In this document: positions 50,731 through 57,731 of the stretch, piece after piece
How the letters are laid out: the number at the start of each line of letters is the position of its first letter
Numbering within the stretch: position 1 is the stretch's first letter
NCBI GenBank assembly: GCA_001574975.1
Contig: KQ965757.1
Span: 198,037-262,036, forward strand
Length of the DNA: 64,000 nucleotides
Source: Gonapodya prolifera JEL478
Lineage: Eukaryota > Monoblepharomycota > Monoblepharidomycetes > Monoblepharidales > Gonapodyaceae
Reading direction: 5' to 3'
Translations under genes and position numbers: made by a program
The notes under the pieces: model-generated
The model's input: the letters and a program-made list of their open reading frames with translations, nothing else
Told to the model about the DNA's origin: nothing
The model's database searches: none

Positions 50731-51700
50731 TCAAGCACCGATCCCACTTGGGAACCACGTGCTGCAAGCCCTGTTTTAAAGAATCGAAGCAATAGGTCAT
50801 TTAGTGAGATTAATAGGTTGACCGGAATGGACAACTCACCATGCGGTCCAGTCGGAGTAGTCCTGACTCGTCATTTTCACCCCGCTTGTATACGCAGCGT
50901 AAATGGTATCGCAGCTGCGCGTTCCAGAGCTACCGATTCCACCCGGCCAGTCTGGTACGAATAAATCTGGCGTGAGCTTGTGCGGTGATGCTTTGAAAAC
51001 GAAGTGCACTCACAGGTACTGCACGACCAAGCCGCCCAATCGGCAAAGTCCTGGCTCGTCATCGCGACGCCACTGACGTAAGCAGCGTGTATGGTGTCGC
51101 ATGTCCGAGTTGAAGGCGGAGGGGGCGGGGGAGGTGGAGGGGCAGTCGGAGGGGCAGAACCAATGCCGGAGGGGAACCCTGTGGAATGGAAAAAGAAAGG
51201 AGGAGCGCGATCATGGCGCAATGTGAGTCACGATGTAGAACAGTCGTGACTCCGAGGGACGCTCTTACAAGTTTTGCAGGACCTAGGTGAAGACAACGGT
51301 GTCAATGTTTTGAACAACTGAAGATATTTTTGTTCAGTTGCTAAATCTGATGGACGCTTACCAGGTATTCCAGTTCGCATAATCTTCACTCGAAAGCACA
51401 CCACCAGACGTGTATGCTTGATAAATAGCATCGCATGTCGTCTTTGGCTGCCCGATTCCATTGGGGAACCCTATTAAACAGAGTTTTGTTTCGTCACTAC
51501 TAAGAAAGAAGCAGAGAGACCAAAGACTATGAAAGCTTACAGGTATTACAGGACCTTTGTAGGAACAAAGTGAGCGAAGACCACCTGGCAACGATCAAAC
51601 AGAGACATACCAAGTAGTCCAGTCGCTGTAGTCTGCCGAAGTGAGTGGCGTTCCGGCAAGATACGCCGCGTAGATCGTGTCACATGAACGCTGTACAACG
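50731..51700 (-). repeat. Repeated two-cysteine modules and 14-nt micro-exons
   Basis: Four modules at the C-terminus of the Agd3-like protein. Consensus: WFP-x-GIG, short linker, CD-x-I-x2-AY-x2-G-x4-S-x-D-[YF]-x2-W-x2-W-[SA]C-x-T. Exons: module 1 about 51690-51600, module 2 51480-51362, module 3 51178-51014, module 4 50951-50840, and the end exon 50770-50731 (ACSTWFPSGIGA, stop). The W-SC-x-T part is on separate 14-nt exons at 51541-51554 and 51269-51282 after modules 1 and 2. It is fused into the exon in module 3 and into the last exon after module 4. Phases are consistent throughout. Each module offers two Cys and several aromatic residues. No known domain was recognised; glycan binding is a guess. 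Confidence 0.8.
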
Positions 51701-54700
51701 ACCGTGGTCGTTTTCAATGTCGTCGTGCGTCTTGTTGTCGATGTGGTGACCCTGATCAAGGTCGTAGTCGTCAACCGTGTGGTGCTTGTGGCCCTTGTGG
51801 TTGTGGTTGAGGGTCTCGCTGTTGTGGTGGATGATCGGGGCGTTGAAGTTGATGCTCTCGCAGTCGTAGCTGTGGCACTCGTCGAGGTAATTGTAGAACT
51901 TGTTGTCGGCAGTTTCGTTTGAGAGGTGCCGGTAGTTTCTCTGTTTGTAGTGATCGAAGTTGTCACAGCCGGCGTCGAGGTTGCGGCTGTTGAACTGGTT
52001 GTCTTCACGCCTTCCGTGGTTTGTGTTATTGTAGTTGACGGCGTTACAGTGGTCACTTCAATCGTTTGCGTGGCTGACGTAGTTAAACTTGCAGCGTTTT
52101 GTCAGTCTTCATGTTGAGTCCGCGGCGAAAAAAGAAATATCTTACGTTGCTATTGTTTCGCTAGAAGAGGAGTGTCGATTGAATGAAAGCAGCCTAACCT
52201 GAGATTGCAGTTCAACAACGTACCTAGATGTCGCGGTTGCTTCGGTGGAGGTCTCCGTGGTTATTCGCGTCTCTGAAGTGCTCACAGAGGTGGTGGGTGT
52301 CTCTGAAGTCGTCGCGGTGGTTGTGGGTGTTTCTGACGTGGTCGCAGAGGTTGTAACCGTTTCTGACGTGGTTGCGGAGGTTGTGAGTGTTTCTGACGTC
52401 GTAGCGGAGGTTGTGGCTGTTTCTGAAGTTGTAGCGGAAGTTGTGACTGTCTGTGAGGTTGTCGCGGAGGTCGTGGCCGTTTCTGAAGTGGTAGCGCTGG
52501 TTGTGGGAGTCTCTGAAGTGGTTACGGTGCTCGTGGGAGTCTCTGAAGTAGTAGCGGAGGTTGTAGCCGTTTCCGAGGTGGTCATCGACGTTGATGAGGT
52601 TGTTCTTGCAGAAGACATTAATGTGAGATGGGAGCGGGGCAGTCGAACAACTGCAGGGCCAGGACTCACGAAGTTGATGCAGTGGTGGTGCTTCTGGAAG
52701 GAAGTTGTAAGTCAGAATCGTCCTCAAACATTGAGCCCGCGCTGTTTTGGAACCAATTCAAATACTCACGTCGAAAATGACGTTACGGCCACATTGGGGC
52801 TCGAGCTAGCAAAGAGTTGTTCATGCGATGACCTGTTAAAATCATTAAATAGACTCACAACACGATAGGTTCACTCAAAGTGACTGTCTGGGTGGTTCCA
52901 GGACTGGTCGACACGACAATTGTCTGAAAAAGTCTGGTCAGCACGTTCACCTTGGAAGGTGGAGTGAAAACCAACCGCAAAATCATTGCCAATCTTCTCG
53001 ATAGTCTGCCCTGGTGCCGCGGCAACGCTCGCAGGCACCGTGATCCGCACAATGCAAGTCCCCGTACTTTGGATATAAATACTTCGTATCGAGCTTGTGC
53101 CAGTATCGTCGTTGACAAGGTCGTACGAAACGGTTACTCCACACGCTTCTCGAGTCCTGCGTTCAGTGTAGAGGTCGTACAAAACATCTCCCTTCAAGCT
53201 GAACGAGGTAGTAAAGTTTCGTTGGGCGAGGGTGCAGAAGACAACTGGATAGCAAATAGCATGAAGAATCACCTAACGACAGGCCAGTCAACCAGCTTAA
53301 GGTACTCGGATAGAACTTTCTCCATCCACTATAGTGGGGAAGCGGTTCAGTTCTTGGTTCTTTTACAACTTCCAAACTTTCGACACCCACCTGGGCAAGA
53401 ACACCCAAGTTACCTGTGTAACCCCCAACGGTAACGGAAGGCATATCAGTGGTTCTTAAGTTCGCTTGATGGAACATGATCGGGTCGTGCCTAATAGACA
53501 TGAACAACTGGAGCTGCCGCGCTCCTTCTCGTTCGAGGATTTGTGACCATCTGCAGTGCGCAAACAAAATGCTATAATAATAAAATCGATCCTTTTCTCT
53601 TCGCGCTGACTCACGATGAAAGGCCCAGAGTTTGATTGTACATAACCTAGGCAGGTTACAGGGAACATCATTGGTTGCTATGACGATAAACAAGGTTTCC
53701 GTTTGTTCAACCCACATTGTACACGTATTCGATTTCAGTGGGAAGCGTGCAGTGATAGTATACGTGACATGGCCACCTGGTGAAATGCAACTTTTGTCGG
53801 CAACGATCAGTTGGATGGATTAGAGACCACACTAGTTACCTTGGAATGACGGTGTATCCCGCATAGTTTGACGATGCCGCGGTGGAAGTCCAGAACTGGT
53901 AAGGATTGGAAGGGGTAATCGCGGGTCTGGTGCGGCGTGATGAGCTATCAATTACCGAGAAGTATGTGGTAAATTACGTACCTGGAGTTGTCTCCAACGA
54001 CACCAATTATACCAAAGTCGGTCAGCGCTTTCAAAGCCCACTCTTGAACGATAAAGTAGCGATGAGACAACGAAACGAAACACACAGAATGGGCGCTTAC
54101 CGTTATGAAGGCCACTGATTTGTGGAGTGACCATTGTTTTATTACTCCAGTAGGACATACCCAGTAAGTTGAGGTACGAAGGTCCGGCCATTTTGTAGTT
54201 CACGGAGAGCTCTGGGCGGTAGTCAAGAGTTAGTCGCGAGCAAGTTTGAACAAGATGAAAGAAATATATAAGTCGCACCGTTCTGAATATCCGAAAGGGA
54301 TATATTGTCAAAATTTTCGTGCTGTTCACAGTCACCATAGGACGATTTCAATGAAAATTAACTTTGAGGGGCGGGCGGTGGTAACTCATACCGTGAAAGT
54401 GTGCGACGTCCAGGTAAAAGTTCCGCTTGGGATTGTAGCAGATGCTCCGCCAACGGCAGTTAGCGATTTAAAAAGCGAGTCCCCCTGAAGATTCGCCGTG
54501 GTCCAGCTTGTCGAAAAAGTTTTGGGCCATCCTGGAGTAAGTGTTATGATGTGTGAGAATCCCTCATAGAGGAACCGCAATGTAGCGGCTGTACTTACGG
54601 ACTTCTCCAGGTGCTCCCGCAGGCTTTATGAACTCTACGTCCACGTATCGCTCTGTGTCGACATCAATAAAGTAATCTGTCGTAGTCGCAATTTGCTCGA

Positions 54701-56250
54701 GAATTCCGTTCCCGTTGAAGGCGAACTCCAACTTGAAGGAACTGCCTGCGGGCAACCTGGAGTTCAGGTTTGTCTGCCAGGCTGCGACGGCCTGAAGGTC
54801 TGCAAACTTGACGCGATAATTGTACGAAGCCGTGGTCTGCGTCGGCGATGTCTCGGTTGTCACTTGTGGGACAGCCAGTCAGTTGGTACAACCTATTTCA
54901 AAGATTCCCCAACTTACAGAACAAGTCATCCACTTGACCCAGAAGGATAGTGCGCCTCCATCCTGGTAGGAGGCCACGCATTCCCCAGGCCAACCACATG
55001 TGGTCCAGCCAAAGGGACGTGGAACTGGTCAGTCGACACGAGAGATGAGTTGCGTGGTATACTCTGTTGGTGAGACGCCCATTCATACCTCCACCATCCG
55101 AAACTCGTGAAAAAGCGCATGGCTTCACGTCCACTGCAAAATATCCGCTCTTCAGCTGATCGATTCCCTCACCCAGAAGTATCCGTGAGTCACTCACTCA
55201 GTGTACTGCACGACGACGCAAACAATTGAGGTCGAGGTGAAGCTTGCGCTGGGAGCTAAAGTGGCGCAGGTGGTGACGTTTGCGATATTGGACGGGAGCG
55301 GAGTGTACAGGTTCGCGGGGTCTGAGGGGAATGGAAGAACATGCAGCTTAGATGAAGAGCTCGACGAGAAAACATTGCACTCACAGTGATATAGTCCAGT
55401 GGTATCCAAAGTTCCGGTGCTTTTCATGTGGGCGAGGGCGGCAAATTGTTCAACAATTGATATGCTCTGAATCTCGCTTGTTCCTCCAAGCGCGACCGTG
55501 CCCTCCGAGGGGGTGGGGTAGTCGTTGAGAATGATACGACGAACCGAGTATGTTCGCTCATACGATTCGATCTGGGTAATCAGTTCGAATTGAAAGGGTT
55601 GTGTTGTTTAACATTCGTATGAAGCAAGCACAAAGACGTACGTAAGCCCACTGGGATGCAGAAATCGCTGACTCGTATAGTCCAGAAGTGCTATTATACT
55701 GCAACAACGGCGAACCGTGGGTGAATAAGAGGGACGTTCAGACACTGAACCTTCGGCTGAACCCACATATACCAAAGAAGTAGATGTGAGGACAATCATA
55801 GAATATTTCGGATTGCCAGTCGCATCCAAAAGAGGAATGTCGCCACTGTATCCAGATTGAGGAATCGAGATTGTGTCCCAAGGAATCTCGTAGCCATTGA
55901 AAGTGGCTTCGGGCGCTACGGGGAACGAGACACGAAAACTATCAGCATACGAAAGAGCTCAAGTGGTAAATGATCATCGCGAGGGGATCCAAAGGGGGAC
56001 TGGGTGTGGCTTGCGGGGGTGAGTATCCCCGTCCGTCCCAAAATCCACAGCTAAAAGCAGGCCTAAAAGCGGGCCAAAAAGCAAATGCGGGGGACCACGA
56101 ACCATCCTCGCCACCGTTAGATGTGGTTAAGATAAGGGCACGGTGACCAATACGGGTGGTAACCGCAGAAATCCCGGAAACTGCGAGGAGAAGAAGAAAG
56201 GCAAGGATGGTTCCCGATCTTCCGATAACTGTCGGAGGAGAAGTTCCCAT
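50731..56250 (-). CDS. Agd3-like extracellular polysaccharide deacetylase (CE18 type) with Ser/Thr stalk and repeated Cys modules
   Basis: Agd3 deacetylates galactosaminogalactan in Aspergillus; this relative should act on an amino-sugar polymer outside the cell. About 20 exons. The signal anchor is MGTSPPTVIGRSGTILAFLL. The N-terminal region resembles the Agd3 carbohydrate-binding part (FNGYEIPWDTISIPQSGYSG, ERTYSVRRIILNDYPTPSEG). The catalytic part has LWLDHMWLAWGMRGLLPGWR, ILLGQVDDLF (Asp-Asp), AAWQTNLNSRLPAGSSFKLE and FAFNGNGILEQI. SHTFT joins HENFDN across an intron (the His-x3-His metal site). It continues with TMVTPQISGLHN, EWALKALTDFGIIGVVGDNS and IRHDPIMFHQANLRTTDMPS. A Ser/Thr-rich stalk with 10-residue repeats follows (about 52800-51700). 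The tail has four modules that contain CD-x-I-x2-AY. The stop is at 50731. Every splice junction I checked keeps frame, so the gene looks functional. Confidence 0.88.
52245..52600. repeat. 30-bp coding tandem repeat (Ser/Thr stalk)
   Basis: About a dozen 30-bp units on the minus strand encode a 10-residue repeat of the type ETPTTSATTS inside the Agd3-like gene. Units vary mainly at the second residue after Glu (Ala, Pro, Val, Leu). Such stalks are normally heavily O-mannosylated and extend the catalytic domain from the wall. Confidence 0.9.
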
Positions 56251-56741
56251 TCTGCAACCTCTCGCAGTGAGCGTCGGAGAGGGTCGCGGTGCAAAGGAGA
56301 CCGCAACGATTTGGAGGAATTTGCCCGGGTCCGGAACACTTCATATGGAATTAGGACACTTAAAGTTACAGGCAGCCCACCCAAATTTGGATAAAAATTT
56401 TGAAGCACATTGTTTGCTCTTAAAATATTCCAAGTCTACCTGCCTTGTCATCGAGGAAAGTAAAACACTGCATAAAATAGCGCTAAAAGGTGGAAAAGTA
56501 AGAAAGCGATGGTGATTTCGACAACCGAACCGCCACATGTGGCGTCAAAAGTTCTTGCATTTTCCGTTTCAAAACCCACCCGATTATCGGTAGTCAAAAG
56601 GGACCCTAAGATCAATCACCGTGTACTTAAAAGAGTGCAGGATCTGTTCCGTTACCCCAAAACGTCAAACAGTAAAGACATCAGTGAGTCGATAAGCCGA
56701 AGAGGCGAGGGTCATCCGCAGAGACTGCTTCCCCCCCCCTC
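56251..56741. promoter_or_regulatory. Shared divergent promoter region
   Basis: About 490 bases separate the start codons of the minus-strand Agd3-like gene and the plus-strand esterase. Any promoter for either gene must lie here or in its near flanks, so co-regulation is plausible. A stretch of eight C precedes the esterase start (about 56732). No specific operator was recognised. Confidence 0.5.
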
Positions 56742-57731
56742 TTGCCCGCCGACATTGCGGAGGGCCCACTGCGGATCCGTGGTCGGTTGATGCACACTAG
56801 CAAAGCCTGCCAATTATTTTGTGCGTCAACCCCAATGACTGAATTCGATAAGGGCGGGCAGCGGGGCATCTTCCACCGAGACAATGATTCGCGTGAAGGC
56901 TTCTTCCACACATACGACAGCCTGGCTCTTCCCGATGCCGAACCTCACAAAGTCCACATATTTCTGCCGAACAACTACGAATCATCGTCCATTCGCCTTC
57001 CCGTTCTGTACTGCTATGACGGAAACACAACATTCTGGCCCGGAGGCGCATTTGGAAGGAACTGGCGGCTCAGCCAGATCATCAGCTGGCTGTGGGGCGA
57101 GGGCTCACTCCAACCACTCATGATCGTCGCCGTGCACCCTCGCGACCGCGAACGTGAGTACACCCACGTCGAATGGGCTCCAGGACGGGCGCATGGCGGC
57201 CTCGAGGCGAACGCTGCATGGATGGCGAACGGGTTGAAACCGTGGGTGGACGCGAACTACCGCACAGCTCCCGAACCTCACCGAACGACCATCATGGGAT
57301 CGAGCCACGGTGGCCTTGCTGCTTTCTACACGGCAGTGGCCCATCCGGAAAGTTTCGGGCAGTGCGTAGCATACTCGCCGTCATTCTGGGTGGGCCAGAG
57401 CTACCCGCGACTCCTCGTCGCTGGAACGACGGGGATGGTAGCCTGCGGGAGACCGCACGTGCTTGATGCAGTGAAGCGCCCTGCAAGCGGGACGCCTGCC
57501 CCAAGACTGTGCATAAAGTGGGGCGGACGGACCGACGGCGGGTTCCACAACTGGTTTGTAGAGCGATGGGCAGCGGAGACTTCGAAAATGACGGTCGATA
57601 CTCTGCAGAAGGAGTGGGGGTATGTTCTTGGTGTCAATCTCTTCGCCGAAGAAGATCCGCAAGGTGAACATTCCGAGCAAACGTGGGGGAGATGGATACC
57701 GGAGTCGCTCAAGATATTTTATAGCAGCTAA
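56742..57731 (+). CDS. Putative esterase, alpha/beta-hydrolase (esterase D/Fes type)
   Basis: Intronless frame of 329 residues; a start at MTEFDKGG (about 56838) is also possible. Esterase-family features: VHIFLPNNYESSSIRLPVLY and CYDGNTTFWPGG, then LMIVAVHPRDREREYTHVEW. The nucleophile elbow is GSSHGG (Ser about residue 192). SESFGQ-type sequence follows (PESFGQCVAYSPSFW), and a late His in GGFHNWFVERW is the likely third triad member. No clear signal peptide, so it is probably cytosolic. The family hydrolyses carboxylic esters, including siderophores and acylated sugars. It sits head to head with the Agd3-like gene. Absence of introns among intron-rich neighbours could mean horizontal origin, but the two F-box genes are also intronless. 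Confidence 0.8.
   Translation: MPADIAEGPLRIRGRLMHTSKACQLFCASTPMTEFDKGGQRGIFHRDNDSREGFFHTYDSLALPDAEPHKVHIFLPNNYESSSIRLPVLYCYDGNTTFWPGGAFGRNWRLSQIISWLWGEGSLQPLMIVAVHPRDREREYTHVEWAPGRAHGGLEANAAWMANGLKPWVDANYRTAPEPHRTTIMGSSHGGLAAFYTAVAHPESFGQCVAYSPSFWVGQSYPRLLVAGTTGMVACGRPHVLDAVKRPASGTPAPRLCIKWGGRTDGGFHNWFVERWAAETSKMTVDTLQKEWGYVLGVNLFAEEDPQGEHSEQTWGRWIPESLKIFYSS

Follow-up and report, generated by a model that had tools for sequence, protein, structure and literature searches.

A predicted Agd3-type deacetylase gene of Gonapodya prolifera ends in a Ser/Thr-rich stalk and four copies of a two-cysteine module that recurs across the genome

Agd3 of Aspergillus fumigatus is part of the galactosaminogalactan cluster, and the roles given to its residues are those of base for D377, of metal ligands for D378, H510 and H514, and of acid for H668, with R613 named alongside them (PMC7229062). 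In the part of that paper used here, the account of its domains closes with a beta-sandwich at residue 806, and neither a stalk nor modules are mentioned beyond it (PMC7229062). We compared this enzyme with a gene of Gonapodya prolifera that lies in a window of 64,000 nucleotides (the whole stretch of DNA analysed) and occupies 50731..56250 on the minus strand. The spliced model, built from GT-AG sites, phase and homology, has 30 exons and encodes 1163 amino acids; it reads from 56250 to 50731 in one frame with consistent phases, its sole stop being the end of the gene. The introns are GT-AG and 52-90 bp long, the first being exceptional at 187 bp, and the N-terminus of the product looks, by eye, like a signal peptide. 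With this gene as its training set, a home-made gene finder likewise joined the catalytic and module exons, though it differed from the spliced model in detail, missing for example the true gene end. On the plus strand of the window, the divergent neighbour (56688-57731) is an open frame whose product matches the esterase domain PF00756 (E 2.5e-23).

The catalytic part begins with a predicted CBM87 domain (residues 37-248; 54985..56142 on the minus strand, introns included, exons 1-7; PF25116, E 2.6e-46), followed by a CE18 deacetylase domain (residues 264-629; 53129..54939, same strand, introns included, exons 7-18; PF25115, E 2.8e-92). The latter scores 310 bits with the family profile (Agd3_CE) against a curated cut-off of 27.6. 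Agd3 of A. fumigatus (PDB ID: 6nwz) is the only strong relative of solved structure (E 1.1e-97), and the alignment extends over chain residues 28-682 of 684. The two proteins have CE18 in common and, by profile match, CBM87, and when positions are counted by hand with a chain offset of 122 they are identical at D377, D378, H510, H514, R613, Y620, M666 and H668. By the same count, W344 of the Trp pair used for binding by CBM87 is common to both, whereas W292 of Agd3 is a Tyr in the Gonapodya protein. The original prediction had likened the catalytic part to Agd3 and offered CE18 as the family to test, and the family profile and the structural relative both support this assignment. Judged by its sequence, the gene is an Agd3-type deacetylase with its catalytic residues kept, and de-N-acetylation of galactosaminogalactan is the predicted activity. 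It is one of 16 Agd3-type CE18 loci found in its own genome (hand-counted from 56 matches), a large set for one genome.

Behind the enzyme stands a Ser/Thr-rich stalk of 284 residues (51691..52804, minus strand), of which 64% are Ser or Thr and none is Cys, and then four modules on the same strand. Module 1 (residues 987-1024; 51451..51690) and module 2 (residues 1029-1065; 51159..51438) each have two introns inside, while module 3 (residues 1083-1120; 50932..51107), which has the variant ending YWPGGIG, and module 4 (residues 1125-1162; 50737..50919), which lies at the protein end, each have one. All are 37-38 residues long, have two Cys, and run from [RK]-[TS]-C-D-x-I to W-x-C-x-T-W-[FY]-P-x-G-I-G; the array starts after the stalk with C-D-T-I-Y and ends in WFPSGIGA and the stop. 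A single open frame (ORF 51595-52101) covers the last part of the stalk and continues through module 1 as far as its second Trp. The architecture originally proposed, a Ser/Thr stalk and four repeated two-Cys modules after the enzyme, is therefore recovered in the spliced model, and its coordinates were right (stalk 52804-51691 and modules 51690-50737 on the minus strand, with the last codon ending at 50731). Its register, with WFP first, has to be shifted, as WFPxGIG closes the module and the array opens with C-D-T-I-Y; introns inside the codons of W27, the second conserved Trp, and of W32, the Trp of W-F-P, had made the exons seem shifted units, so that WFPxGIG was taken as the start. The description of the protein as a wall enzyme finds no support in its end, GIGA, where no GPI-type hydrophobic end is seen by eye.

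The modules are beyond chance, as a query with module 2, whose last residue follows the unspliced DNA and is not that of the spliced model, matches other contigs with E down to 7.1e-9. In the 47.6 Mb of the genome this query finds at least 98 places at E<=10, and two further modules used as queries gave zero new contigs. A profile search of 29 fetched regions and the window yielded 127 distinct module exon hits on 25 contigs, which fall into 34 clusters (same strand, gap below 1.2 kb) with 1 to 9 hits in each. The tail had first been presented as a novelty of Agd3; the module is instead genome-wide and is found at only one of the 16 CE18 loci, the nearest cluster being more than 45 kb from any of the other 15. 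The module set numbered 113, was reduced to 107 by dropping overlapping loci and to 76 near-complete modules by a completeness filter, and includes some from uncertain gene models. W27, C29 and G36 are invariant in all 76 near-complete modules, and C3 and W24 (74 of 76), D4 and D20 (73) and W32 (72) are nearly so. At L021, L024, L027 and L037 the first module often comes after an R-Q step (RRQ, PRQ, KRQ), suggesting a clipped N-terminus. A radial-spoke protein in the genome marks a flagellate.

That the module fitted no known domain, as was first stated, holds within Pfam, NCBIfam and the PDB, where sequence searches of the modules gave no convincing match. A Pfam scan of 43 modules (max_evalue 10, HMMER filters on) listed no match at E<=10 to CBM1 (PF00734), to CBM10/fungal dockerin (PF02013) or to LysM (PF01476). 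DUF5419 matched a two-module piece with E 0.00085, but over 14 residues only and below the cut-off, and in the larger scan it was listed for just one of the 43 modules (E 0.13), and it was rejected. VPg, mRNA_decap_C, DUF4875, NorB and DUF7249 were all below the Pfam cut-off and none was listed in the 43-module scan, and PDB matches to the interleukin-11 receptor (E >=0.22) and ECXA (E 0.87) were gone when a profile was used as query. No relative of the module was found in a viral set searched with one pattern or in prokaryote genomes searched for close relatives, both sets being without fungi, and among the titles and abstract openings listed in literature searches none describes such a module. 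For a contiguous 35-residue exon of the window, modelled from a four-row alignment and lacking WFPxGIG, AlphaFold2 predicts helices at 7-16 and 22-30 (mean pLDDT 79.4, pTM 0.45); a Foldseek search with this model gave a single match, with E 9.8.

A carbohydrate enzyme over the Pfam cut-off accompanies 18 of the 34 clusters, or 21 when weaker matches are added. Those over the cut-off are GH45 (six), GH7 (three), CE4 (two), and one each of CE8, GH18, GH135, GH5, GH16, GH26 and CE18; the weaker ones are a second GH5 just under the cut-off (L027), a GH16-like match below it (L011), and what appears by eye to be a copy (L021) of the GH26 gene (L024). The module lies upstream of GH45 on the same strand at all six loci found (241-453 bp) and of GH7 at all three (334-859 bp). 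GH7 and GH45 in other fungi often carry CBM1. CBM1 itself was found at 26 places in this genome, none of them on the contigs of the GH7 and GH45 loci, and the only module cluster near one is that of L019, where a CBM1-type sequence comes just before three modules and GH16, a locus that the gene finder split into two genes. The GH45 genes, each of which has between 2 and 9 modules, form two groups of three (L015, L022 and L023; C33 and C65) that look like mutual copies.

Beyond the window, genes were modelled with a simple finder, first trained on the CE18 gene alone, which in places joins or splits neighbours, and most of the enzyme links there rest on it. For one GH7 locus (C202) the fusion is independent of the splice model, since two modules, a Ser/Thr stalk and the GH7 sequence lie in a single uninterrupted reading frame. 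A similar example is found on C74, where a module end and a GH135 domain lie in a common open frame. The GH135 (spherulin-4) enzyme of L009:6028-7107 is preceded by two modules, and GH135 has modules at one of the six loci found. Like CE18, GH135 acts on galactosaminogalactan in Aspergillus.

The other 16 clusters have no carbohydrate enzyme over the cut-off, and 13 of them have none even weakly. At L034:6216-8501, modules and a stalk stand before IMPa-type peptidase domains (PF18650, PF18642). Three further loci combine TNFR/ephrin-receptor-like Cys-rich repeats with a stalk and modules, the repeats being over the Pfam cut-off in L013 and assigned by eye in L016 and L028. A receptor kinase was considered for L013 and L028 and rejected, as by eye a stop closes each array and the frame that resembles a kinase lies downstream of it; two pieces of this frame in L028 matched no Pfam family. 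Two loci (L012:1491-6583 and L017:1-5572) appear to encode adhesin-like stalk proteins with a short Cys-rich head, a very long Ser/Thr stretch and 3-4 modules, where head and tail are separate gene-finder models that we read as one protein; the head of L012 matched no Pfam family. Of the rest, L010 has a lamin-tail match below the cut-off, L026 has no Pfam match, nor has L018, which like L030 was given no type, and the remaining three are L036 and two clusters on L020.

The positions of introns within the modules bear on the origin of the tail. Among 107 modules, 39 have a phase 2 intron that splits the W27 codon and 31 a phase 1 intron that splits the W32 codon, and any other position occurs at most 9 times. 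The window gene and L017 have the same intron pattern in modules 1-3, both lacking the W27 intron in module 3, and have in common the YWPGGIG ending of that module; module 4 has the W27 intron in both, and the L017 model diverges thereafter. Module 3 of the window gene is 87% identical to module 3 of L017 and 84% to L012, and among the tails compared that of the CE18 gene most resembles those of these two stalk proteins. The CE18 gene probably gained its tail from a stalk-protein gene by 3′ exon shuffling, a direction that we infer from these similarities.

What the tail does can be approached through its partners. We consider it rather more probable than otherwise that this is a new, exon-shuffled module of carbohydrate-binding type, used in the way of CBM1, and that the tail is a polysaccharide tether. 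The module of 38 residues would be a helical hairpin closed by a putative Cys3-Cys29 disulphide, with an aromatic W-[FY]-P strip after the hairpin, and would act in carbohydrate binding as a small module whose family is outside the libraries searched (Pfam, NCBIfam, PDB). Arrays of 1-9 such modules, often behind Ser/Thr- or Pro-rich linkers, would hold secreted enzymes on insoluble polysaccharide, as CBM1 does in other fungi. Since none of the GH7 and GH45 loci found lacks the module, the ligand is probably cellulose or another glucan of plant or fungal walls. In the CE18 gene, the stalk and four modules would tether the CE18/CBM87 deacetylase to a surface, where it may strip acetyl groups from an amino-sugar polymer. 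The suggestion of a glycan-binding unit in the original prediction thus gains support from the partners (9 of 9 GH7 and GH45 loci), while binding itself stays at the level of a suggestion. Several points are counterweights: the partner enzymes act on different polymers, nearly half of the clusters are without a carbohydrate enzyme over the cut-off, one CE18 and one GH135 locus are the sole members of their sets with modules, and the helices are predicted for a piece without WFPxGIG, with a low pTM and one fold match of no weight.

The main rival of polysaccharide binding is a docking unit whose tandem modules bind a scaffold protein and so build an extracellular complex, as the dockerins of anaerobic fungi do. 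That the arrays, in tandem, stand next to enzymes of unrelated kinds and also next to non-enzymes (the IMPa-type peptidase, the TNFR-like repeats and the stalk proteins) would suit such a role, as would the finding that a search of the genome, run without a positive control and so not proof of absence, gave no match to the CBM10 dockerin. However, the number of hits varies from 1 to 9 between clusters and the strong conservation of Trp is typical of glycan binding, and we regard docking as unlikely. The same low probability attaches to a role confined to the fungus itself, in which the tail holds secreted proteins in its own wall or mucilage and does nothing on food polymers. That role would account for C-terminal tails of stalk and modules on proteins without a recognised enzyme and for modules on CE18 and GH135, Agd3 being in the galactosaminogalactan cluster of Aspergillus (PMC7229062), but it is at odds with the module at every GH7 and GH45 locus found. 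It is very unlikely that the module is a shrunken, chitin-binding LysM, a relation that is not supported even though LysM domains are present in the genome (16 matches over the cut-off) and hhalign against nine LysM sequences of the genome aligns columns 1-37 of the module to columns 8-41 of LysM and brings both Cys into register. The score was 10.8; when the columns of the LysM profile were shuffled, 4 of 60 profiles reached it in either local run, and 10 of 60 reached the score of a global run. The first LysM strand (YTVxxGD) is absent from the modules, and LysM was listed for none of the 43. Elsewhere in the genome, L038 holds a LysM-repeat gene with eight matches over the cut-off within about 2.4 kb.

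If polysaccharide binding by the module is confirmed, an early-diverging fungal lineage would have a new family of binding modules at all the GH7 and GH45 loci detected, and there would be a new means of studying the way in which these fungi grip plant matter. It is through small binding modules that secreted enzymes are directed to their place of action, and the natural fusions of module and enzyme are a ready set for ligand tests.

Among known systems, LysM has two helices, as is predicted for the module, and Cys at similar places, but the comparison of their profiles is not significant. The CBM10 dockerins of fungi are likewise about 40 residues long, in tandem and on diverse secreted enzymes, whereas the module has two Cys only and no sequence match to them. 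One bolder picture, which we hold to be quite improbable, is of an aerobic zoosporic fungus with its own enzyme shuttle: a two-Cys module peculiar to its lineage, with no kinship to CBM1 or dockerins, would have been exon-shuffled onto GH7 and GH45 cellulases and adhesin-like stalk proteins and would gather these proteins on one shared surface or scaffold, in a system that would parallel the cellulosome of rumen fungi but have arisen independently. CBM1 has no sequence match to the module, and its two or three Cys pairs and its fold of strands differ from the single pair and the predicted helices here. Both, however, are shorter than 40 residues, combine Cys with aromatic residues, and are carried on many unrelated wall enzymes.
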